A DNA stretch of 50,277 nucleotides from a virus. The position numbers were made by a program, and so were the translations under genes. Position 1 is the stretch's first letter. Every line of letters begins with the position of its first letter. Where the stretch lies: positions 5,304 to 55,580 of IMG/VR virus record IMGVR_UViG_3300001589_000012. One strand, given 5' to 3'. The notes under the pieces are model-generated. The model worked only from the letters and a program-made list of their open reading frames with translations. It made no database searches and was not told where the DNA came from. This document shows, in pieces, positions 7,870 through 27,433 of the stretch.

Positions 7870-10800
7870 ATGCGTAGAGATTTGAAGCCCTCACTTCGTC
7901 AGGATACCAGTCGGAAGAAAACTCGTCCCACGGATATCGTCAAAGAAATCGTTATCGATGTAGGTGACGATACTGTTCTTCACTATGAGGGCAGTCCATT
8001 GATGAACGGAAATTTAGTTGCTGATCCCGAAAGTGAAAGTTTACACAGCGGGATCGGGACAAATTCGTATGACAATCTACCGTGGCTGGCAATTGGTTTG
8101 GCAACAGACAATGTTGAGGATGCAAACAACGACGTTGTTACGGTGCCAAATACCGAACCCGACCACGTTGACCCGGGATCCCCTCTAGACGGATCGGGTG
8201 GTATTCACCAGCCGCCTTCCGACATTGATGGTATGGATTCTGCTGGATCATCTTCGAAGTTTCCTACTCGAACTGCAATTCTTTTAGATCTCGCGGGCAT
8301 CCCAAACAATGCCATCATCGAATCTGCGGAACTCGAACTGACTGCATTCCCCAACAACCCACCAGATCCTGGCAACGATGTATTTGGTTCTGAGGATGGA
8401 GTTTCTACTTCTGTTTGGCCAAGCGGCGGCGTAGAAGTAGAAGTAATGAATCTCATTGAAGATGTTGATCCGTCTTGCACATGGAACACGAAGAACAATG
8501 TAACAGAAGATTCTCCCTCTGGTAACGCAACATTCCCCGCGTCGGATCAACGCTGGTGGAGACAACCAGAGGGAGTGGTGCCACCCAACGCTATTGGTAT
8601 CGCACAGAACACAAGAAGATCAGACACAGGTGAACCGCTCGAACCAATTGAAGATCAATTGGTGGATACAGGCACAGACGGTGGTCAGGATTTTGGTCAA
8701 GAATACTATGGTCACATAGGATACGGAATTAGCGGCGGTGGTTGTGTAGTAAACACCAATGACGCAAACTCATATCCATCTTTCAATATCAGTTTTGATG
8801 ATTGGGGTGGCTCAGGGACTGGACTGTTTGATGTTGATGTTACGAATCTGGTTCAATACTCTCTTGATAACCAAAACAAGAAGTGTAACTTACTTCTTCG
8901 TGCCAAGAACTGGACAGAGAATGATGCCGCAGCCAATCCCGACGCACAAAGAACATATCCCGAGAATGTAGCAACGATTGAAGAACTAGAATTTGATCGT
9001 GCTTATATTACCAGTCCGTTGGCTTCCAGTGGTGAACTTGATGACTTAGATTCGGACGGTGTTTCCGATGAACCAATCGAAAACGACCAAATCTTGCACG
9101 CAGTTCCAGTCGGTCTTGCCAATGAGGATAGTGTAACCTATACATGGCAAATTGAAGTTCCAGTAGTTTATGAATCACTAAACAATCTCACCTTCAATTT
9201 TCCCGCCAGTGCAGTCGAGGGAAATACGGTAGAAGTTACCAATGTAACTTATCTTGGTGGTGACGGTACAGAGACCACTTCTTATGAGTGGTTCTTGGAT
9301 GGTACACAGGACTCTACCCAAACGAGTTCCTCTTATACAATTCCTGATGCAACTGGTGGATCTGTTGTAGCGGTTAAAGTAACAGTTTCTAATACGACCG
9401 AAGGTGACAGTATTGATGGTACTGAAAACTGTGACATTGCCGCCGATTCGTCCGGAAGTTTCAATCTAACGAAAATTCCTGATACCCCTTCTATTCTTGA
9501 AGGTACTGATGTCAGCGTTCAAATGGATACTATCAGTGGTGTTGGTCAACCAAGTTTTGGAGTTGAATGGAAGAAGGACTTTACTGTATTGAAGACTGAA
9601 TCAGTAACACCAAATCCTTCTGGTGTTGCAATATCGACTATTACCGCTCCTCTTGTTAGTGGTGGAGCGCCTCTTCTCAAATATTCGGTGCAGATGTTCG
9701 ATGGTGCGGTTGCGATAGGCGCGGCTGTAACTGGACAGTGGGGGATCAGTGACACACCGGCGGTGCCACGACCTGCAATATTGAACGGCAGTTACAAACT
9801 AGATAATGTTTCCGTTTGTCCGAACTACCGAAGTTCCGATTCTAGCCACCCAACCTACAACGAAGAGGCAGATAATGACACCAGTGACGGTGGTAGTCGT
9901 CAAATCACTCTCGATTGGTATGAAGAACCCATTTTGGCTGGTTGTGATCTGACTATCCTTGATGAACCTTCATTGTCTCAGACTCACGATGGAACCGTTT
10001 ACGACTTCGGTGTTCCGTTCGGTTACTGGAGAACTGACGGAAACGTTCAGAAGTTGACAGATACTACAACAGATCCATCGGGTCTGACAAAATACGATGA
10101 CATCGGAGACGGCTTCATCATTAGTTTACTTTCGGGCGGTGACGGGAATCCTGTAAAATTAAGAAGTAGTATTACCAATTCCGCCAATCTTGGTAATGGT
10201 TTTGGTTTATCTCAGATAGTGCATATGATCACAAGAAATGGTGCGAATGGTAGATCGGTCGAACCCACTGGTGGACAGACAGAACGTTGGGGTGATTGTG
10301 CTGTTTGGTTGCCTGGATTCTCAAATGTTGACGATAACGGATGGATTATCATGACACCGGTGTCAAAGGTGGCAAAGTTCTACAATGGATCCCCGCCCGA
10401 CCCGCATGACAATAAAAAATACCGAACTCACGATCGAGAAGAGGTAGATGATGAGACTACGGTCGGGTGGAAAATAAAAATAGGACCAAGTAATGCGACC
10501 GATGCTAGAGAGTTTTGGCAAAGTATGACGCCGATGGAGTCTTTAGACAGAACCGATTTTGGTAATTTCACGGACGCGGGACCGATAAATTCTAACGACG
10601 AGAACAGTAAAAATATTCACATCAATTTTTATACTAGGGATATTCCCGAGACCGTTGATGCCTCCTCTACGGGAAATGATTGGGCTAGTGTAATTGCTAC
10701 CGCTGTTCCCTCGACGGGTGGTGGTCCGAGTTCGGATGTGATTCCTCTGATTACTGCATTCGTGGAGAACTCTAAGCATGCTTTGACATTCATACCAAAT

Positions 10801-11373
10801 GGTACTCCCGCTAGCGGAAGTGGGAACGAACTTCTCCAACAGGCTCTCAGTAATCTTACGGTGACAAGCCTTCATGGATCGTTAGCACTTGGTGATAAAA
10901 ATAATGATGAGGCTTTTGCTCTTATCTTTGGAAAATATATTGTGCTGAGAGTAGAACCCACCGCCAACGTGGACACCGACGATGATGGTGTGATTGATAT
11001 CGTGCAGGGTGATACTTTAAGTTACTATACTCACTACATGGGTCTTGACACATATGACAATTCGAACAATACAGGACCAGAATTTGCATGGTTCAGTTAC
11101 AAAAAGTTAGATGGATCTAATTGGTCATTGATTGGGTATAGGACGGGAAATCAAATAACGAATCCATCGGGTTCTGGAGATGCCATTTACCTAGAACACA
11201 TGTATTTCAATGCAGGCACGGGTCTAGGTGGTCCAGGCGAGGAGTATGTGCAGCCAGATGTTCAACATGTTTTATATGTGTTTGATACAAGAGCAGAATT
11301 CGAAACCGCCATTCCCTCTAACCAAAGAGACATAAACGCCTGGGACGCGACAAATGGTGTAGAATTTCCATAA
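7870..11373 (+). CDS. large DNRLRE / Ig-like domain protein, probable virion or adhesin protein
   Basis: A 1167-residue modular protein. Residues about 125-360 follow the DNRLRE pattern of beta-sandwich surface proteins: TRTAILLDLAGIPNNA, ESAELELTAF, CTWNTKN and FDVDVTNLVQYSL. Residues about 437-525 form an Ig-like fold (EGNTVEVTNVTY, YEWFLDG, GGSVVAVKVTVSN), followed by a second such module to about 630. Calcium-loop-like DLDSDGVSDE (near 391) and DTDDDGVID (near 1035) resemble thrombospondin type 3 or dockerin loops. No signal peptide or transmembrane anchor. It has its own AGGAG site and lies alone between two tRNAs, far from the tail operon. Host-surface binding or decoration is inference. 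Confidence 0.65.
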   Translation: MRRDLKPSLRQDTSRKKTRPTDIVKEIVIDVGDDTVLHYEGSPLMNGNLVADPESESLHSGIGTNSYDNLPWLAIGLATDNVEDANNDVVTVPNTEPDHVDPGSPLDGSGGIHQPPSDIDGMDSAGSSSKFPTRTAILLDLAGIPNNAIIESAELELTAFPNNPPDPGNDVFGSEDGVSTSVWPSGGVEVEVMNLIEDVDPSCTWNTKNNVTEDSPSGNATFPASDQRWWRQPEGVVPPNAIGIAQNTRRSDTGEPLEPIEDQLVDTGTDGGQDFGQEYYGHIGYGISGGGCVVNTNDANSYPSFNISFDDWGGSGTGLFDVDVTNLVQYSLDNQNKKCNLLLRAKNWTENDAAANPDAQRTYPENVATIEELEFDRAYITSPLASSGELDDLDSDGVSDEPIENDQILHAVPVGLANEDSVTYTWQIEVPVVYESLNNLTFNFPASAVEGNTVEVTNVTYLGGDGTETTSYEWFLDGTQDSTQTSSSYTIPDATGGSVVAVKVTVSNTTEGDSIDGTENCDIAADSSGSFNLTKIPDTPSILEGTDVSVQMDTISGVGQPSFGVEWKKDFTVLKTESVTPNPSGVAISTITAPLVSGGAPLLKYSVQMFDGAVAIGAAVTGQWGISDTPAVPRPAILNGSYKLDNVSVCPNYRSSDSSHPTYNEEADNDTSDGGSRQITLDWYEEPILAGCDLTILDEPSLSQTHDGTVYDFGVPFGYWRTDGNVQKLTDTTTDPSGLTKYDDIGDGFIISLLSGGDGNPVKLRSSITNSANLGNGFGLSQIVHMITRNGANGRSVEPTGGQTERWGDCAVWLPGFSNVDDNGWIIMTPVSKVAKFYNGSPPDPHDNKKYRTHDREEVDDETTVGWKIKIGPSNATDAREFWQSMTPMESLDRTDFGNFTDAGPINSNDENSKNIHINFYTRDIPETVDASSTGNDWASVIATAVPSTGGGPSSDVIPLITAFVENSKHALTFIPNGTPASGSGNELLQQALSNLTVTSLHGSLALGDKNNDEAFALIFGKYIVLRVEPTANVDTDDDGVIDIVQGDTLSYYTHYMGLDTYDNSNNTGPEFAWFSYKKLDGSNWSLIGYRTGNQITNPSGSGDAIYLEHMYFNAGTGLGGPGEEYVQPDVQHVLYVFDTRAEFETAIPSNQRDINAWDATNGVEFP

Positions 11374-13493: not shown

Positions 13494-14093
13494 ATGAAAA
13501 GTGATTTCATTATTGATCCGATCGGCAAGAAAGATGCGGAGGGCTTGCTCCTTCAGTATCACTATCTCAAGGATCACTCTAAAGGTTTCAAGTCTGGATA
13601 CAATTATGGACTATTCAAAGACGAACCAATCTCATCAGAAGGAAGTCTTGGGGTATGTATTTTCACGGGACTACCAGTTCCCGAATTGGCCCAGTCAGCC
13701 TTCGGATTACAACGTGATCAACAGGACGGGCTTTTTGAACTTAGCAGGTTGTGTCTGCACCCATCCATCCAACGAAGTGAAAAAAATATGGCGACATGGT
13801 TCGTTTCGAGATGTCTGCGAAGGTTGCGACAGACAACTATGGTTAGAGCGGTCCTGAGTTACGCAGACGCCGACTATCACCAAGGAACCGTTTATAGAGC
13901 AGCAAATTTTGATTACTATGGAATGACGGCCCCGAAGAAAGACTTCTGGATCAAACAGGAAGACGGATCATTCGTCAAGCATAGTAGAGGTAAGATGAGC
14001 GGACTCGATGGAGAGTGGCGCGATAGAAGCAGGAAGCATCGCTTCCTCATGGTTTATGATAAGACTTTGAATGTTCTTTGGAACAAGGAGTAG
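13494..14093 (+). CDS. Mom-like DNA-modification protein (GNAT fold)
   Basis: A 199-residue protein resembling the Mu Mom family, acyltransferase-fold enzymes that modify adenine in phage DNA to resist host restriction. Supporting segments: FELSRLCLHP (residues 81-90), the helix ATWFVSRCLRRLRQ, then AVLSYADADYHQGTVYRAANFDYYG (119-143), the core of the fold, and a basic C-terminus ending FLMVYDK. Length is slightly below Mu Mom (about 230-240 aa). No Com-like zinc-finger activator is adjacent. Start ATG 13494 is two bases after tRNA-Gly and has no independent ribosome site, so translation may be weak or depend on processing. The chemistry is inferred from family resemblance. Confidence 0.65.
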   Translation: MKSDFIIDPIGKKDAEGLLLQYHYLKDHSKGFKSGYNYGLFKDEPISSEGSLGVCIFTGLPVPELAQSAFGLQRDQQDGLFELSRLCLHPSIQRSEKNMATWFVSRCLRRLRQTTMVRAVLSYADADYHQGTVYRAANFDYYGMTAPKKDFWIKQEDGSFVKHSRGKMSGLDGEWRDRSRKHRFLMVYDKTLNVLWNKE

Positions 14094-18942: not shown

Positions 18943-21192
18943 TCACGGAGACCCTTCTTCGTCATCTTCGATGAACAATCTGAATTGTGTACCGTCTGGA
19001 ACATCGCCGTCGTAATTGATGGTGATTTTTCCGTCTACCGTACCATCACTAGAGATTGTGAAGTCTGATAGTGCGGATGCTACTAATTCTCTTCTGTGAT
19101 CATCGATATGTTCTTTATCCATATCTCTGTATACAATGGGACCGTATTCCGAACTTGCGGGAAGTAGATTCGACTCTGGATTAGTGATAACTTGCTTGTC
19201 TACCATCGTGATCTGAATATTATCTCCGTCGGCGATTGTATAATCTTCGTCGGAATACATAGCAACAACGTAGTTGTCTTTATCAGTTTTAATAACGGCA
19301 TGATTATTTAAGGTTATGTCATTCGCTCCATTTTTTGTCATTATCAAGTCGCCAAACGTATTTCTCCACGCATCAACAGGATCATAATTGCTACCACTCC
19401 ACCGAAGTACTTCATCGGTTTCGGTGATGTCAATGAAGACGGCAGTACTTGCTATACCACCCGATGAGGGGAGTGCGTAATTGTTCACTATAAATCCATC
19501 CGTGGATGGATCGAAGTAAAGAATCTCACCAGAGTAGGCAGGGATGACTGTTTCTTTACATGAAACTTTTCCGTTGTAGTCATAGTTAAATCGTCCGACT
19601 CCTTCGCTACTCTGGTCGTTTTTATTTACAGTGAAACTGATTACGTTCGGATCGTTTAATTCGTCGATAACATAACCATCTGAACTGGGATCGATCCATT
19701 GATTAGCATTCCAAACAAAACTTGGGTCGCTTCCCTGAAAATGTACGGTCCCAGTGGATTCCCTACTTTCCACATCATTATCGATTAATATTTGGTTGTT
19801 TCCGTGACCACCATTGGCAAACACTTTCCATTGTAATGCGGCCGGTCTGTGAGGAATCGCAAGAGGGAAAGTAAAATTGGGGTCATCCATGTTACTAATT
19901 GGTATTGCCGGTCCTCTTTTTAGATTGTACTTTATGGTTCCGTCTAGTGGCGATTCACCTGTGCGTGTCTGACGGAATGTAATTTCTCTTGGGGTGAATC
20001 TGTTGATCGATCTATATGCTTTTCTCCACGGGGTTAATCTGGTGGTAACCCCTCCGTCTGTGGTCGTTGTTGTGGGTACACCGAAGTTGAAAAATCCAAA
20101 ATTGGGTCCGTTAATTGTGTGTGTCCCTCCTATGGTAAATATTCGGGTATCCTGATCGAAAAGTAATTCTGGTGATGCGAGATCACCTTGACTGATTTTC
20201 GTGGTTCCATTGTTAGATAAGAGTTTGTAATTGGATCCATCTGGAGTACTGTAAATCTTATATGTGGTAGTGGGAGATCCACCACCGCCTCCACCACCTC
20301 CACCGCCTCCACCACCACCAGAAGGCACTGGAACTCTATAGCGAATCTTTAGTCTAGGTCGGCTGGTGATATTATCAATATCACTTGAATCAATTGTTTC
20401 GTCGGTAGAAGGGAATACCGAACCATCAGTGGGATTAACACGAAGACATGTGAGATTAGTTGTCGATGTGAGAATTTCGGTGATTTGGTATCGACTTACT
20501 GCGCCGTTGGTGGTATCAGTTACCATAATATAAGAACCCACGGCAGGATTTATTGGAGCGCCATTTATTTCAATGAAATTTCCTGCTCGTGATTCATCAT
20601 TGTACTCGGCATTCCACTCCATAATTCCTGCATCATACTGAAAACCAGTACCGAGTAGTGAGGTGTTCTCGAATGGTGTGTCTAGTGTCATCGCATAAAC
20701 GCATTTATCACCTTGATCAAATTTCTGAATATTACTTACTGTTGTTTTATGACTCGCATCAACAATGTCGCCTGTTCCGTATTGGACACGCCCGAAGTCG
20801 AACCCAGTAAAATTACTCTCTGATAAATTATCTAAATTGTCGAGGTACTGATCGTATAAAGCCTGATCTACAGGCACATTAGTTGTTGGTTTATTTAAGA
20901 TCACCTGAAAATTTTGTGGTATACCCGAGACATAAAATATAGCATAGACGGGGTCACCACCAGAATATGTCACGTCTGTCCCTAAAGGCCAATTACTCGT
21001 GGTGTTCGTTTCGGTTACTTCTATCAGTCTTTTAAGAGTAATAGAACCATTGTGTAGATCCGATGAATTGTTGAGCGAATTGAAAAACATCATCGCACGA
21101 GCACGATCACTATAATTGGGGGAACCGGTGGATGAGTCGTATGGATACCACTCACCTTGATTTACATTATATGAAATATCATTTAGAGGCAT
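18943..21192 (-). CDS. large structural or fibre-like protein with poly-Gly linker
   Basis: A 749-residue beta-rich protein without signal peptide. The N-terminal region (residues 1-285) and the C-terminal region are separated by a run of 14 consecutive Gly at residues 292-305 (20278-20319), probably a flexible hinge. Frequent Asn, Asp, Thr and Ser are typical of virion surface proteins. The ATG is only one base from the stop of the upstream gene 21194-23494, so they form one operon. No named family; a virion or tail-fibre role is inferred from composition and operon partner. Confidence 0.6.
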   Translation of the reverse strand: MPLNDISYNVNQGEWYPYDSSTGSPNYSDRARAMMFFNSLNNSSDLHNGSITLKRLIEVTETNTTSNWPLGTDVTYSGGDPVYAIFYVSGIPQNFQVILNKPTTNVPVDQALYDQYLDNLDNLSESNFTGFDFGRVQYGTGDIVDASHKTTVSNIQKFDQGDKCVYAMTLDTPFENTSLLGTGFQYDAGIMEWNAEYNDESRAGNFIEINGAPINPAVGSYIMVTDTTNGAVSRYQITEILTSTTNLTCLRVNPTDGSVFPSTDETIDSSDIDNITSRPRLKIRYRVPVPSGGGGGGGGGGGGGGSPTTTYKIYSTPDGSNYKLLSNNGTTKISQGDLASPELLFDQDTRIFTIGGTHTINGPNFGFFNFGVPTTTTTDGGVTTRLTPWRKAYRSINRFTPREITFRQTRTGESPLDGTIKYNLKRGPAIPISNMDDPNFTFPLAIPHRPAALQWKVFANGGHGNNQILIDNDVESRESTGTVHFQGSDPSFVWNANQWIDPSSDGYVIDELNDPNVISFTVNKNDQSSEGVGRFNYDYNGKVSCKETVIPAYSGEILYFDPSTDGFIVNNYALPSSGGIASTAVFIDITETDEVLRWSGSNYDPVDAWRNTFGDLIMTKNGANDITLNNHAVIKTDKDNYVVAMYSDEDYTIADGDNIQITMVDKQVITNPESNLLPASSEYGPIVYRDMDKEHIDDHRRELVASALSDFTISSDGTVDGKITINYDGDVPDGTQFRLFIEDDEEGSP
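20278..20319 (-). repeat. poly-glycine codon run
   Basis: Fourteen successive GGN codons (mostly GGT and GGA with GGC) encode the Gly linker in the 749-residue protein. Mixed codons argue against recent simple slippage. Confidence 0.9.
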
Positions 21193-21193
21193 A

Positions 21194-23494
21194 TCAGAAT
21201 CCTATTGCGAATACGGTGAGATTGCTTCCCGTTGTTGGTGCGTACACTGAAACTTTACGAATTTGATCTATCTCGATGAATATATCTTCTCCTGCACTTA
21301 GAGGATAAAACTTGCTAGCATCACTGATAGTTCCGCTTCCTATGAATACAACCTGATCGGCGCCTGGGTGCAGTTTGAATCTTGCACCCGACCTCAGTTG
21401 CGTGACGTTTGTGAACGGTTCGATCTTCCCGGCGACCGCGGCCACGGATTCTTGTACAAAACTCGTGGGAGTCGGAACTTCAATGTAGACTCGTTTAGCG
21501 GGGGTCGTGGTGGTTTGGGTATCACCAATCGTTTGCATAATTCCAGCACCACCAACTAACGTGTCAAGATCGTTATTGATATCAGTTGCAAGTGTATCAA
21601 TCGATGATGCTAGAAGGTTGGTCTGGCTAGTTGATGCTTCGACGGAAGTTTTTAGTCCTTCGAAAGCGGCGCATATTCCCGTTAGACCTCTGTAAGTCAA
21701 TTCAAGGGATCCCGTAGATCCATTGATGATATCATCCAACTGAGAAGAGGTAATAGCGACTGGTGCGTCACCAGATGAAGCACCACGCTCTGTGGTATAC
21801 CCTCGAATCATAATTGGGAATGGTTCAGATGTGCCTCCCGTTCCTGTGACGAATACTCCAGTATTACCGATATCAGAACCTTTAACGGGGAGTGCTTCGG
21901 CAGATGTTGCAGCATTGCTAATCTTGATGTCGCTTGCAACATTCACCGCGAACGAGATACCGTCAGCGTTTACCATATTTACATTGATCGCATCATTTGT
22001 CATACCGATTGGTAGAATGGAGGATCCCGATGCTCCATGCAGAAGCACTGCGATGGCAGAGGCACTTGCTCCAGCCAGACCGAGTATGCCAGGAGCGGTA
22101 AGTCCGCTATGCACTCTCATTCCCGGGAATGGCTGGTCGAATGTCACACCAATGAGACCTTCATCGGGACTGACATCGCTAGTAGGACCAACACCTGCTA
22201 TGTGAACTGGATCGAGAGTTGAACCATCATTTCTGCCTTGAATCTGCATCGCAGTTGCGTTGGTGACTCCTCTACCATCGATTACTGTTTTTAAGGCTTG
22301 GGTAGTTGCATCTATAACTTCTGTCTGTAGAAGAATGGGCGATCCGTCAGTCGAGAAGCCAGCGAGTGCTGTTGCAACTGGGAATGCTCCAGTAGAACCT
22401 TGAACCACTATTGAATCTTCAAGGGATCCTAGTCCACCAGTTGCACCCCATGTTCCGCCCGTAATACCTCGAATGTCAAGATCGGTTGCAGTAACCGTTC
22501 CAGATGTGGTCACGGTTCCTGTAACTGACACAGTTCCCCTGACTGGTAGAGTGACTCCAGCCGCGGTTGTTATTCCTACGGCCAGATCTGAATTGGCAGT
22601 TCCTGCGATTGTGATGGGTGCAAATGCGGAATTTGATCCTGACGTTCCCGAAACCGCTAGTGTGTTTTGTGAATTTACCCCTATCACGGATCCGACATTT
22701 ACGGTTGCACTAAAGGCTGAGTCGGTTAGAGCAACTTTTAATGCATCACCAGATTTACCGAAGTAGTCAACACTACCATCAGCAGTGATAAAACAGAGAG
22801 CGGCGGTAACGGGGTATGCTCCAGTGGCACCCTGAACTATAACTGAATCAAAAGATCCTAATGTATCTCCACTGTATCCTGACGTTCCGAAAGTAAGACC
22901 TCGAATGTCAAGATCGGTTGCCGATACTGCAATATCACCAGTAACACCTACTGTTGTTCCAGCAACGATTCCAACGTCACCTGACACTGTAACATCACCA
23001 GTAACACCTACTGTTGTTCCAGCAACGATTCCCACATTACCTGATACTGTAACATCACCAGTGACACCTGTGGTTGTTCCCGCAACGATTCCGACGCTAC
23101 CTGATACTGTAACATCACCAGTGACACCTACCGTTGTTCCAGCAACGACCGATACTGCAACATCACCAGTAACACCTATTGTTGTTCCAGCAACGATTCC
23201 AACGTCACCTGACACTGTAACATCACCGGTGACACCTAAAGTGACACCAGATCCCTGAAGATCAACATTTAATCTTCCAGAGGTGTTGGTAATTTGTGTG
23301 CCATTAGAGTAAAGTTGTGCAGGTAGAGGACCGTTCGTTCCTGCGGTGTTTACCGGATTAATGGTTCCGTCTGCACCCCAAACCATTTTTACATATTGGT
23401 AATTTGCGGCGGTTGAACCTGAAGTAACTAGATCGGTGGCTATTAGAGCCGATGTTGCTCCCGATACTAAAGTGACTGAGTCATTGATGGTCAT
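21194..23494 (-). CDS. large repetitive virion structural protein
   Basis: A 766-residue protein poor in Cys and rich in Gly, Thr, Val, Ser and Ala. The N-terminus (TINDSVTLVSGATSALIATD, YQYVKMVWGADGTINPVNT, PLPAQLYSNG) resembles that of marine-phage virion proteins. Residues about 85-191 are tandem 20-residue repeats (VGIVAGTT-GVTGDVTVSGD) suggesting a beta-helix or beta-roll fibre. Later parts contain two near copies of the DLDIRG / GATGAYPV type block. GGAGAAACAA upstream supports the start. It is first in a - strand operon starting near an 18-base palindrome. Role inferred as fibre or capsid decoration. Confidence 0.65.
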   Translation of the reverse strand: MTINDSVTLVSGATSALIATDLVTSGSTAANYQYVKMVWGADGTINPVNTAGTNGPLPAQLYSNGTQITNTSGRLNVDLQGSGVTLGVTGDVTVSGDVGIVAGTTIGVTGDVAVSVVAGTTVGVTGDVTVSGSVGIVAGTTTGVTGDVTVSGNVGIVAGTTVGVTGDVTVSGDVGIVAGTTVGVTGDIAVSATDLDIRGLTFGTSGYSGDTLGSFDSVIVQGATGAYPVTAALCFITADGSVDYFGKSGDALKVALTDSAFSATVNVGSVIGVNSQNTLAVSGTSGSNSAFAPITIAGTANSDLAVGITTAAGVTLPVRGTVSVTGTVTTSGTVTATDLDIRGITGGTWGATGGLGSLEDSIVVQGSTGAFPVATALAGFSTDGSPILLQTEVIDATTQALKTVIDGRGVTNATAMQIQGRNDGSTLDPVHIAGVGPTSDVSPDEGLIGVTFDQPFPGMRVHSGLTAPGILGLAGASASAIAVLLHGASGSSILPIGMTNDAINVNMVNADGISFAVNVASDIKISNAATSAEALPVKGSDIGNTGVFVTGTGGTSEPFPIMIRGYTTERGASSGDAPVAITSSQLDDIINGSTGSLELTYRGLTGICAAFEGLKTSVEASTSQTNLLASSIDTLATDINNDLDTLVGGAGIMQTIGDTQTTTTPAKRVYIEVPTPTSFVQESVAAVAGKIEPFTNVTQLRSGARFKLHPGADQVVFIGSGTISDASKFYPLSAGEDIFIEIDQIRKVSVYAPTTGSNLTVFAIGF
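22921..23238 (-). repeat. 60-bp tandem coding repeat
   Basis: Units start at 22921, 22981, 23041, 23101, 23149 and 23209. All are 60 bases except the one at 23101, which has an in-frame 12-base deletion (48 bases). Each encodes a 20-residue beta repeat of the structural protein 21194-23494. Confidence 0.92.
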
Positions 23495-24862: not shown

Positions 24863-26572
24863 TCACTTGAAGAGTATTCCATCCGAGTAATCGTTTTGGG
24901 ATCGGCGAGTTCTCAGGGGTGGATCTTGGACTGTGGTTTCTTTCTTTATAGTAATAGGGGCGAACACCTTCGCCCCATCTGAAGTACCGAAGGTCGAGTG
25001 GAATTCCCTTTCATCTGGTGTAAGATTTGGAGTGACAAAAGATACTAAGTCCTTAACCCCCTTTTCTATTTGAAAAAAGGGATCCATTTGTTCTATCTGG
25101 TTCTGGATTGTGGGATCGATCTTTCTCTTCAGATCCATTTGGGCGTTGAATTCTATATCTTTGTTTGTCATTTTTGGTATGAGTGATATATCTCTATTTT
25201 CTCCAACGTGCTTGGAGTCGCCCGGCATCGGGTTCGCTCGCTCTTCATGGTATCTTATAATATCGCTGAGGGTTCCAGTAATTTCCCCTGTATTTATTGG
25301 ATTGCTGGGATCCAAAAATTTTAATCTCGGCGGTAACCCGTCCGCCACTACTTTTTCTGATTCCTTTACATTTTGCTCTTCCATATGAGCCAATTCCTCC
25401 ATTCGTTTCCGATCAGAAGGATTCTTTGTATTTTTAGCCTTCTCTCTTATGCTTGCTGCATTTCTTCTCTTTTCGGAGGTGACTTCATCAGCATCTCTTA
25501 ACTTTTTCAGGGAATTCGCTGCCCATGTGTGATAATCTGACCTTGGTCGATCGTTGAATTCGGCATTTACCTTCTTCATATCAAAGGATGGGTTTGCCTG
25601 TCCCATCTGTCTCCCTAGAGATTCGTTCGTTTTTTGTAATTGTACTGCCTGTTGTCTTGTGAACTCTGCCAAAAGATCAGCACCCAGTCCTAAAGGACCA
25701 GTGAGTTTTCCCAGACCTTTCGTGATCAGGTTTCCCATATTGCGAAGACTTTTTTGTAATCGCAATGCCTTATCGGCTCGTAATTTTGCTGCATTTGCTG
25801 CATCGTCTACGACACTGCCGGCTGCTTGTGTCGCATTTTGTGGGGGCCTAGGAACGTCACTGGTATCACTGATTCCAATCGGCGGCCCAGGCGTCTTCGA
25901 GGGTGTCACAGTCGGCCGACGGGCTACATTCGTGGCCGCCCTTGCTCCACGACCAGCGGCGTCGTCTGTAACTCCAAGAAGTTTTTTAAGGAAAGGAATT
26001 TTATTAGCGCCAGGAATTCGTCTCAGCAAGGGACCTAATGTAAGTCTACCTGCTGCTAAAGCACCAAGAATATCAAGGGCTATGTCTCCGAAACTAAGCA
26101 AACTGCTTAATACTGATCCCTTCTTATCATCATCATCACCACCACCACCACCAATAGTTCTTGTTTTTTTGGTTACGGCACTTGCACCCATTAACCCGGC
26201 GAATCCACCAACCTTACTTCTTCTCGCCTCTAATTCCTCTTCTCTACGCTCTGCTCTTGTTGTTTGATCTTCCGATCCACCTTCACCCATAACCACTCTT
26301 CTAGGATTATAGATGTTGATAATAGAATCTTTAATTGGAGCCTTTATAGTAAAGTTTTTAGTTTCGGCCAATATGATATCACCACCTTGACTGATTCTAT
26401 TCTCTACTTGTGTAGCGGTTTTTCTTTCGGTGATATTATCCCGAGGAGATTTCTTGATCTGTTTAGTCGCCAGTCTAAATGCATTAGATACCGTGAATTT
26501 GGATTGTATATCACGAATCCCCTGAATGGGATCAGGTAAGTTTAACGTATTTAAAATTTGACTAAGAGCCAT
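24863..26572 (-). CDS. tape-measure or baseplate-hub candidate (gp29-like position)
   Basis: A 569-residue mostly helical protein. Its N-terminal 120 residues are polar, followed by a Gly/Ala-rich hydrophobic stretch (SSLLSFGDIALDILGALAAG) and a long Lys/Arg/Ala-rich coiled region (AAKLRADKALRLQKSLRNMG, RRNAASIREKAKN). Size is near T4 gp29 (590 aa) and it directly follows gp26/gp51, where hub and tape-measure functions sit in T4-like operons. No residue-level gp29 signature is recognised, so the name is by position. Its ATG overlaps the end of the gp51-like frame by 11 bases. Last gene of the - strand morphogenesis operon. Confidence 0.45.
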   Translation of the reverse strand: MALSQILNTLNLPDPIQGIRDIQSKFTVSNAFRLATKQIKKSPRDNITERKTATQVENRISQGGDIILAETKNFTIKAPIKDSIINIYNPRRVVMGEGGSEDQTTRAERREEELEARRSKVGGFAGLMGASAVTKKTRTIGGGGGDDDDKKGSVLSSLLSFGDIALDILGALAAGRLTLGPLLRRIPGANKIPFLKKLLGVTDDAAGRGARAATNVARRPTVTPSKTPGPPIGISDTSDVPRPPQNATQAAGSVVDDAANAAKLRADKALRLQKSLRNMGNLITKGLGKLTGPLGLGADLLAEFTRQQAVQLQKTNESLGRQMGQANPSFDMKKVNAEFNDRPRSDYHTWAANSLKKLRDADEVTSEKRRNAASIREKAKNTKNPSDRKRMEELAHMEEQNVKESEKVVADGLPPRLKFLDPSNPINTGEITGTLSDIIRYHEERANPMPGDSKHVGENRDISLIPKMTNKDIEFNAQMDLKRKIDPTIQNQIEQMDPFFQIEKGVKDLVSFVTPNLTPDEREFHSTFGTSDGAKVFAPITIKKETTVQDPPLRTRRSQNDYSDGILFK

Positions 26573-26741
26573 TGTTTTCTCGTTTCTGTTTCTCTATCTC
26601 TTTGATAATGAAACCAACATAAATTTCTCTCTCCCACGGAAGCATAGATTCTATTTCGGTCAACGAATACTTGTGCCAATACATCAAGTCATGATTAGTC
26701 TTATAGTAGTTAGTCAAACTTGTGTGGCTGTTTATCAGATA
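26562..26741 (-). CDS. 51: gp51-like frame read by -1 frameshift from gp26
   Basis: An open frame of 59 codons entered directly by a -1 slip at the end of gp26. It encodes LTNYYKTNHDLMYWHKYSLT, then EIESMLPWEREIYVGFIIKE and a charged end: the compact HDL-YWHKYSLTE-LPWERE pattern of the small baseplate-hub assembly protein (gp51) of marine T4-like phages. There is no ATG before residue 20 (26684) and no good ribosome site there, so either the frameshift product (about 290 residues in total) or a 40-residue short form is made. By analogy with gpG/gpGT of other tailed phages it would be a tail or baseplate assembly chaperone. Confidence 0.65.
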   Translation of the reverse strand, partial: YLINSHTSLTNYYKTNHDLMYWHKYSLTEIESMLPWEREIYVGFIIKEIEKQKRENNGS

Positions 26742-27433
26742 AAAAAATCAAGAACATTTTCAACCTCCATCGAAACTTTCTCTTGGCAGTTAGGACAAGT
26801 GAAATTTACGTCGATGTAGTTTCGGGGAATTTTATCCAAAAAATCTTTGTTTATTTTTTGTACGATATCGACACCTAAAGATTCAACAAACTTGTCTTTT
26901 TCCTCGTCCGTTTCGTCATCGAAAGGAAATACGCTTTCAGAATCAAACACAGATTCGATAGACGCTTTGATCACATCTACTATTTCGTTCTCTGGTTTTA
27001 CACCCTCTCCCATCGTTTTTAAGGATGGAAACTGAAGTTTTAGGCCATACTCATCGTTGATCATAATTTTATATTGTGGATCTTCTGGATTTTTCCGTTT
27101 GATGTCTTCTAGATTCACAGAAACTTCTGTTGAAGTGTTACAGTTCTTGCACAAGATGCCTGTCTTTACATCTTCACCGACTGACTTACATCTGATCGCC
27201 ACCATTAATTTTTCCAAGTCAAAAACGGCAAGATCTCTAATGTCAACATCACCTTCGACGCACACTTGACAAACTTCGACAGTTTTATTCATGATCTCTT
27301 GAGCATCTTCTGACTGTAGAGCCATGAGAATGTTTTTCTCTTCGCCTACAGTATATGGTCTGAACTTCACTCGCTTGTTAATGCTTGGAAGTTCAATATT
27401 GAATGTTGGGTTTTTTAGTGTAGGTAAACTCAT
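26735..27433 (-). CDS. 26: gp26-like baseplate hub / assembly protein
   Basis: A 232-residue protein of the T4 gp26 baseplate family (T4: 208 aa). The start MSLPTLKNPTFNIELPSINK followed by FRPYTVGEEKNILMALQ is the family's hallmark. Two C-x2-C pairs (CKNC at 95-98 and CPNC at 213-216) form a probable zinc ribbon. It ends LDFFI, where the codons GAT TTT TTT ATC TGA create a run of seven T. A -1 slip there extends the protein into the gp51-like frame. It has no close ribosome site overlap with the upstream gene (22-base gap). Confidence 0.85.
   Translation of the reverse strand: MSLPTLKNPTFNIELPSINKRVKFRPYTVGEEKNILMALQSEDAQEIMNKTVEVCQVCVEGDVDIRDLAVFDLEKLMVAIRCKSVGEDVKTGILCKNCNTSTEVSVNLEDIKRKNPEDPQYKIMINDEYGLKLQFPSLKTMGEGVKPENEIVDVIKASIESVFDSESVFPFDDETDEEKDKFVESLGVDIVQKINKDFLDKIPRNYIDVNFTCPNCQEKVSMEVENVLDFFI
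26740..26747 (-). promoter_or_regulatory. candidate -1 ribosomal slippery site (T TTT TTT A)
   Basis: On the - strand the heptamer T-TTT-TTT (26747-26741) followed by A spans the last Phe codons of gp26 and lies four bases before the stop TGA (26737-26735). Re-pairing one base back enters the gp51-like frame exactly. Confidence 0.65.

Follow-up and report, generated by a model that had tools for sequence, protein, structure and literature searches.

The slippery heptamer of phage lambda is GGGAAAG, and the lambda gpG/gpGT proteins and their relatives were reportedly treated by Xu, Hendrix and Duda in 2004. Vladimirov, Gautam and Davidson (2022, Virology 566:9-15) are said to have found frameshifting conserved in several groups of T4-like phages, with T4 itself using genes 26 and 51. 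The locus analysed here resembles the lambda pair in that a short and a long form are predicted to arise by a -1 frameshift near the 3' end of a gene upstream of the tape measure gene; it differs from lambda in its heptamer, in its larger short form and in the extra domains that follow gp26 residue 87. T4 gp26 and gp51 are two separate genes, gp51 being an in-frame long form for which no frameshift is needed, whereas a single locus is found here.

Citing Vladimirov et al. 2022, the PRFect paper (PMC10885494) refers to T4-like phages with a separate long gene in place of frameshifting, and the phage Adele paper (PMC12846349) refers to poly-T slippery sequences in the N-terminal tail assembly chaperone (TAC-N) of T4-like phages. 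As described there, the TAC-N/TAC-NC pair of T4-like phages has its poly-T slip site in TAC-N, as does the present locus, and no difference in kind is apparent. Pseudomonas phage Adele and the Vandenendeviridae likewise have, at their TAC locus, a -1 shift at a T run ending TAC-N, with the -1 frame open in every genome (PMC12846349); there the motif is GTTTTT and the phage family is a different one. The original prediction had been made unaware of any established T4-like gp26-51 fusion. According to the papers citing Vladimirov et al. 2022, genes of the gp26/gp51 type had already been identified as frameshift-linked TACs of these phages, so that the finding is right but of an already known kind.

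The gp26 locus in the window

The window is a 50,277-nucleotide stretch taken from a 60 kb IMG/VR virus record, IMGVR_UViG_3300001589_000012. Within it the gp26 locus (Table 1) is surrounded by T4-like tail and baseplate genes. The 3' end of gp26 reads GAT TTT TTT ATC TGA, with the TGA at 26737-26735 on the minus strand, and 231 of the 232 residues come before the shift point. A slip of one base backwards leads into a frame that reads TAT CTG ATA AAC AGC and onwards, open as far as 26562, and the predicted fusion therefore has 231 + 59 = 290 residues. The ATG of the next gene shares 11 nt with the end of this frame. The slippery T-TTT-TTT, the -1 direction free of any intervening stop and the 231 + 59 residue product had all been predicted from the letters alone, and each agrees with the coordinates found here.

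Table 1. Features of the gp26 locus, in window coordinates.
Feature	Coordinates	Strand	Description
gp26-like gene, short form (TAC-N)	26735..27433	-	ORF, ATG start, 232 codons, 232 aa
Slippery heptamer T_TTT_TTT	26747-26741	-	Sequence; 3 nt 5' of gp26 TGA
-1 'gp51' frame, TAC-C of long form	26562..26741	-	59 sense codons + stop 26564-26562
Next gene, probable tape measure protein, 569 aa	24863..26572	-	Homologous in nearest relatives
Shine-Dalgarno-like TGGAGGTT, candidate stimulator (inferred)	26762..26769	-	14 nt upstream of heptamer

Profile searches matched gp26 to Pfam PF12322 (T4_baseplate, E 5e-52) and to phrog_150 (E 5e-52), and matched the -1 frame peptide to phrog_634 (E 1e-20) as well as to the last 50 columns of phrog_150; an NCBIfam search gave no useful result. 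Judged by these profiles, the locus belongs to the T4-like gp26/gp51 family (PF12322, phrog_150, phrog_634). The 60 kb record, which may be incomplete, contains a single copy of the gp51 domain; it follows gp26 in the -1 frame and belongs to no longer in-frame gene. The layout of the T4 subtype, with an in-frame gene of its own for the long form, was not found in that record. Elsewhere in the window, an ORF of 1167 aa at 7870-11373 on the plus strand had no PHROG or Pfam match, and a 199 aa protein encoded at 13494-14093 on the plus strand matched a Mom-like DNA modification family (phrog_1384, E 6e-30).

The slippery heptamer across relatives and its candidate stimulators

Viral contigs were scanned with single gp51 peptides, and 159 loci with a gp51-like peptide were gathered from IMG/VR and GenBank phages, representing 75 distinct gp51 sequences. 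The gp51 queries started with the residues FF, which slightly biases recovery towards intact sites; searches based on gp26 gave the same picture. The loci span the Kyanoviridae (cyanophages and phages of Pelagibacter, Methylophilales and Ochrobactrum), Schizotequatrovirus (Vibrio), Pseudomonas phage pf16 and a Desulfovibrio phage. An alignment of gp26/gp51 junctions across marine T4-like phages had been proposed as a check, and its outcome was uniform: in all 75 distinct relatives, which are mutually related and so do not count as independent trials, gp51 lies in the -1 frame relative to gp26 and an in-frame X_XXY_YYZ heptamer stands 0-24 nt before the gp26 stop. The heptamer is T_TTT_TTC in 47, T_TTT_TTT in 25, T_TTT_TTA in two and T_TTA_AAA in one. 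Such heptamers occupy 0.48% of codons in gp26 bodies, or an expected 4% or so per 9-codon tail, and the combination of a -1 frame with a heptamer close to the stop in every relative is thus more than chance.

Immediately before the two slip codons the amino acid varies among Asp, Ser, Asn, Ala and Phe, yet the final base of its codon is T in 75 of 75 relatives. Of the 75, 74 have TTT as the first Phe codon of the slip site, compared with a TTT share of 69% in gene bodies, and at three loci the protein has changed while a slippery heptamer is kept (T_TTT_TTA in L067 and L141, T_TTA_AAA in L078). Together, the invariant T, the preference for TTT and the three altered but slippery loci indicate that the signal itself is conserved, and not the protein alone. 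In L078, a distant relative, T_TTA_AAA takes the place of the T run at the gp26 end (about 2480-2505) and is itself another classic heptamer.

It had also been suggested that a stimulatory structure might be sought by folding the sequence downstream of the slip site. That suggestion was not borne out in the window, where no stable stem was found over the 45 nt directly downstream of the heptamer (z about 0). Taken over the family, downstream RNA structure is modestly in excess (mean z of -1.0 compared with -0.25 for gene bodies, p 1e-6); a downstream stimulatory structure is not claimed for the window, since none appears there over 45 nt. Upstream, TGGAGGTT contains a Shine-Dalgarno-like GGAGG with a duplex energy of -10.5 kcal/mol. 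Most relatives have a similar GARGG at a distance of 7-10 nt upstream of the heptamer, forming a strong peak relative to gene bodies. Synonymous shuffling retains most of this peak, however, and a best-site test was not significant, for which reason the element is regarded as a candidate stimulator only. Its conservation in the family appears to be mostly explained by conserved Glu-Gly codons, and the spacing of 14 nt in the window is at or past the usual range. It is conceivable, though we would sooner doubt it, that in marine T4-like phages a GARGG 7-14 nt upstream drives the poly-T shift in place of downstream RNA structure; if so, phages such as this one would need no stem or pseudoknot.

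Frameshift or independent gp51 start

The strongest competing explanation is that gp51 is a separate small gene, translated by termination-reinitiation once ribosomes have stopped at the end of gp26, with TTG 26717 or an ATG in its core as the start. Public records do annotate gp51 separately, mostly from inner ATG starts (Syn1 and others), and in a few relatives, for example B23 and VH7D, an ATG adjoins the gp26 stop. The TTG at 26717, the earliest possible gp51 start in the window, could in principle begin a 51-residue protein. At that position, however, relatives carry TTA, CTG, CTT or CTA, which makes it a plain Leu codon, and no Shine-Dalgarno match precedes it, the best anti-Shine-Dalgarno energy being +0.6 kcal/mol against -2.9 at the gp26 start. 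The first ATG in the -1 frame of the window is the 20th codon after the slip and falls within the conserved part, again with no Shine-Dalgarno sequence found before it; at 56 of the 75 loci the first 18 codons of the frame lack an ATG. The original prediction of 19 codons free of ATG and of no convincing ribosome site for gp51 thus holds.

The substitution pattern upstream of the ATG weighs further against a separate gene. In the clade of the window, codons 2-19 after the slip give a pN/pS of 0.23 when read in the -1 frame, whereas the other two frames give 1.14 and 2.09; for the codons between slip and ATG over 74 loci the values are 0.46 for the -1 frame and 1.10 and 1.39 for the others. Judged by these ratios, the stretch from slip to ATG evolves as -1-frame protein-coding sequence under purifying selection, and a gene starting at the TTG or the ATG is disfavoured because it would leave this selection unexplained. 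The heptamer, moreover, is universal among the distinct loci, and the fused protein exists in T4-type phages. We consider an independent gp51 very improbable; the -1 'gp51' frame is no free-standing gene but the C-terminal domain of the predicted long form.

Even less probable is transcriptional slippage, in which the T run would cause RNA polymerase to insert an extra base and the edited mRNA would then encode the fusion. Bacteria are known to show such slippage on runs of T or A, and the window offers a homopolymer of seven T; yet 47 of the 75 relatives have just six T followed by C, one has the non-homopolymeric T_TTA_AAA, and what is conserved is the codon pattern of tandem slippage, kept in phase with gp26. 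An error of sequencing or assembly in the T run, with gp26-51 in truth one in-frame gene, would suit the error-prone nature of homopolymers but is refuted by the comparative data, the same -1 layout being present at 75 distinct loci that include isolates from different depositing groups.

A predicted tail assembly chaperone pair

Programmed frameshifting at the end of gp26 would yield a protein that T4-type phages, in which one gene encodes the whole gp51 of some 250 aa, make directly. With hhalign, T4-type gp51 could be aligned to almost the entire length of the predicted 290 aa fusion (E 2e-23), and its last 50 residues are matched by the -1 peptide taken alone (E 7e-11). The short form aligns with T4-type gp26 (E 1.5e-24). 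Against the 282 columns of phrog_150, the fusion covers 5-280, T4-type gp51 13-282 and T4-type gp26 17-235. These alignments indicate that T4 uses two genes for what the present phages make from one locus.

The lambda-like layout that had been proposed is supported by the fold of gp26 and by its neighbour. In an AlphaFold model of gp26 (mean pLDDT 90), residues 1-87 match YqbN (3klu, Z 7.8) and the HK97 TAC (2ob9, Z 7.3); the next match is 5ir0 at Z 5.8, and unrelated chains start at Z 2.7 and fall from there. These matches came from a second aligner; a Foldseek search of the model against the PDB gave nothing at E < 0.001 (E 0.6). Values of Z below 8 are weak alone, but the gap to unrelated chains, combined with gene order, makes the match useful, and the modelled N-terminal domain of gp26 appears to have a chaperone-like fold as in HK97 gp13 and YqbN. 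The gene directly downstream of the TAC locus is kept in the clade of the window and had no PHROG match itself, while its positional counterparts in Syn1 and vB_OspM_OC hit tape-measure PHROGs (E 6e-12 and 4e-8, respectively). It is therefore a probable tape measure gene, an assignment that in the window rests on position and on these more distant relatives. Downstream of it, two adjacent large minus-strand ORFs at 18943-21192 and 21194-23494 (749 and 766 aa) had no PHROG or Pfam match.

The analysis establishes the layout of the locus, and also the conserved heptamer, the -1-frame selection ahead of any start, the colinearity with single-gene fusions and the chaperone-like N-terminal fold. 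Based upon these and the tape measure neighbour, gp26 and the -1 frame very probably constitute a tail assembly chaperone pair (TAC-N/TAC-NC) of the G/GT type, produced by programmed -1 frameshifting. For the window phage, slippage itself, its efficiency and chaperone action are what we infer. Most ribosomes would terminate at the TGA, releasing the 232-residue short form (TAC-N), while a minority would slip back one base with P- and A-site tRNAs on TTT TTT and translate 59 further codons, giving the long form (TAC-NC). If the lambda gpG/gpGT pair is a guide, short forms would coat the tape measure protein encoded by the next gene, the C-terminal domain of the long form would recruit the tail tube protein, and neither form would be present in the virion; a pair of this type would also be expected to be produced in a fixed ratio and to be required for tail formation.

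This reading has consequences for annotation. The cyanophage and marine T4-like records inspected omit gp51 or give it a doubtful start, often within the conserved core: gp51 is unannotated in the deposited records of S-WAM1, ACG-2014b, S-MbCM6 and VH7D (L015, L016, L017 and L020), and in those of Syn1 and S-RSM4 (L002 and L018) it begins at an inner ATG, losing conserved residues. The true gp51 product in the inspected marine T4-like records is probably the gp26-gp51 fusion. One superfamily would thus make the same chaperone in two ways, by a frameshift here and from a separate long gene in T4.
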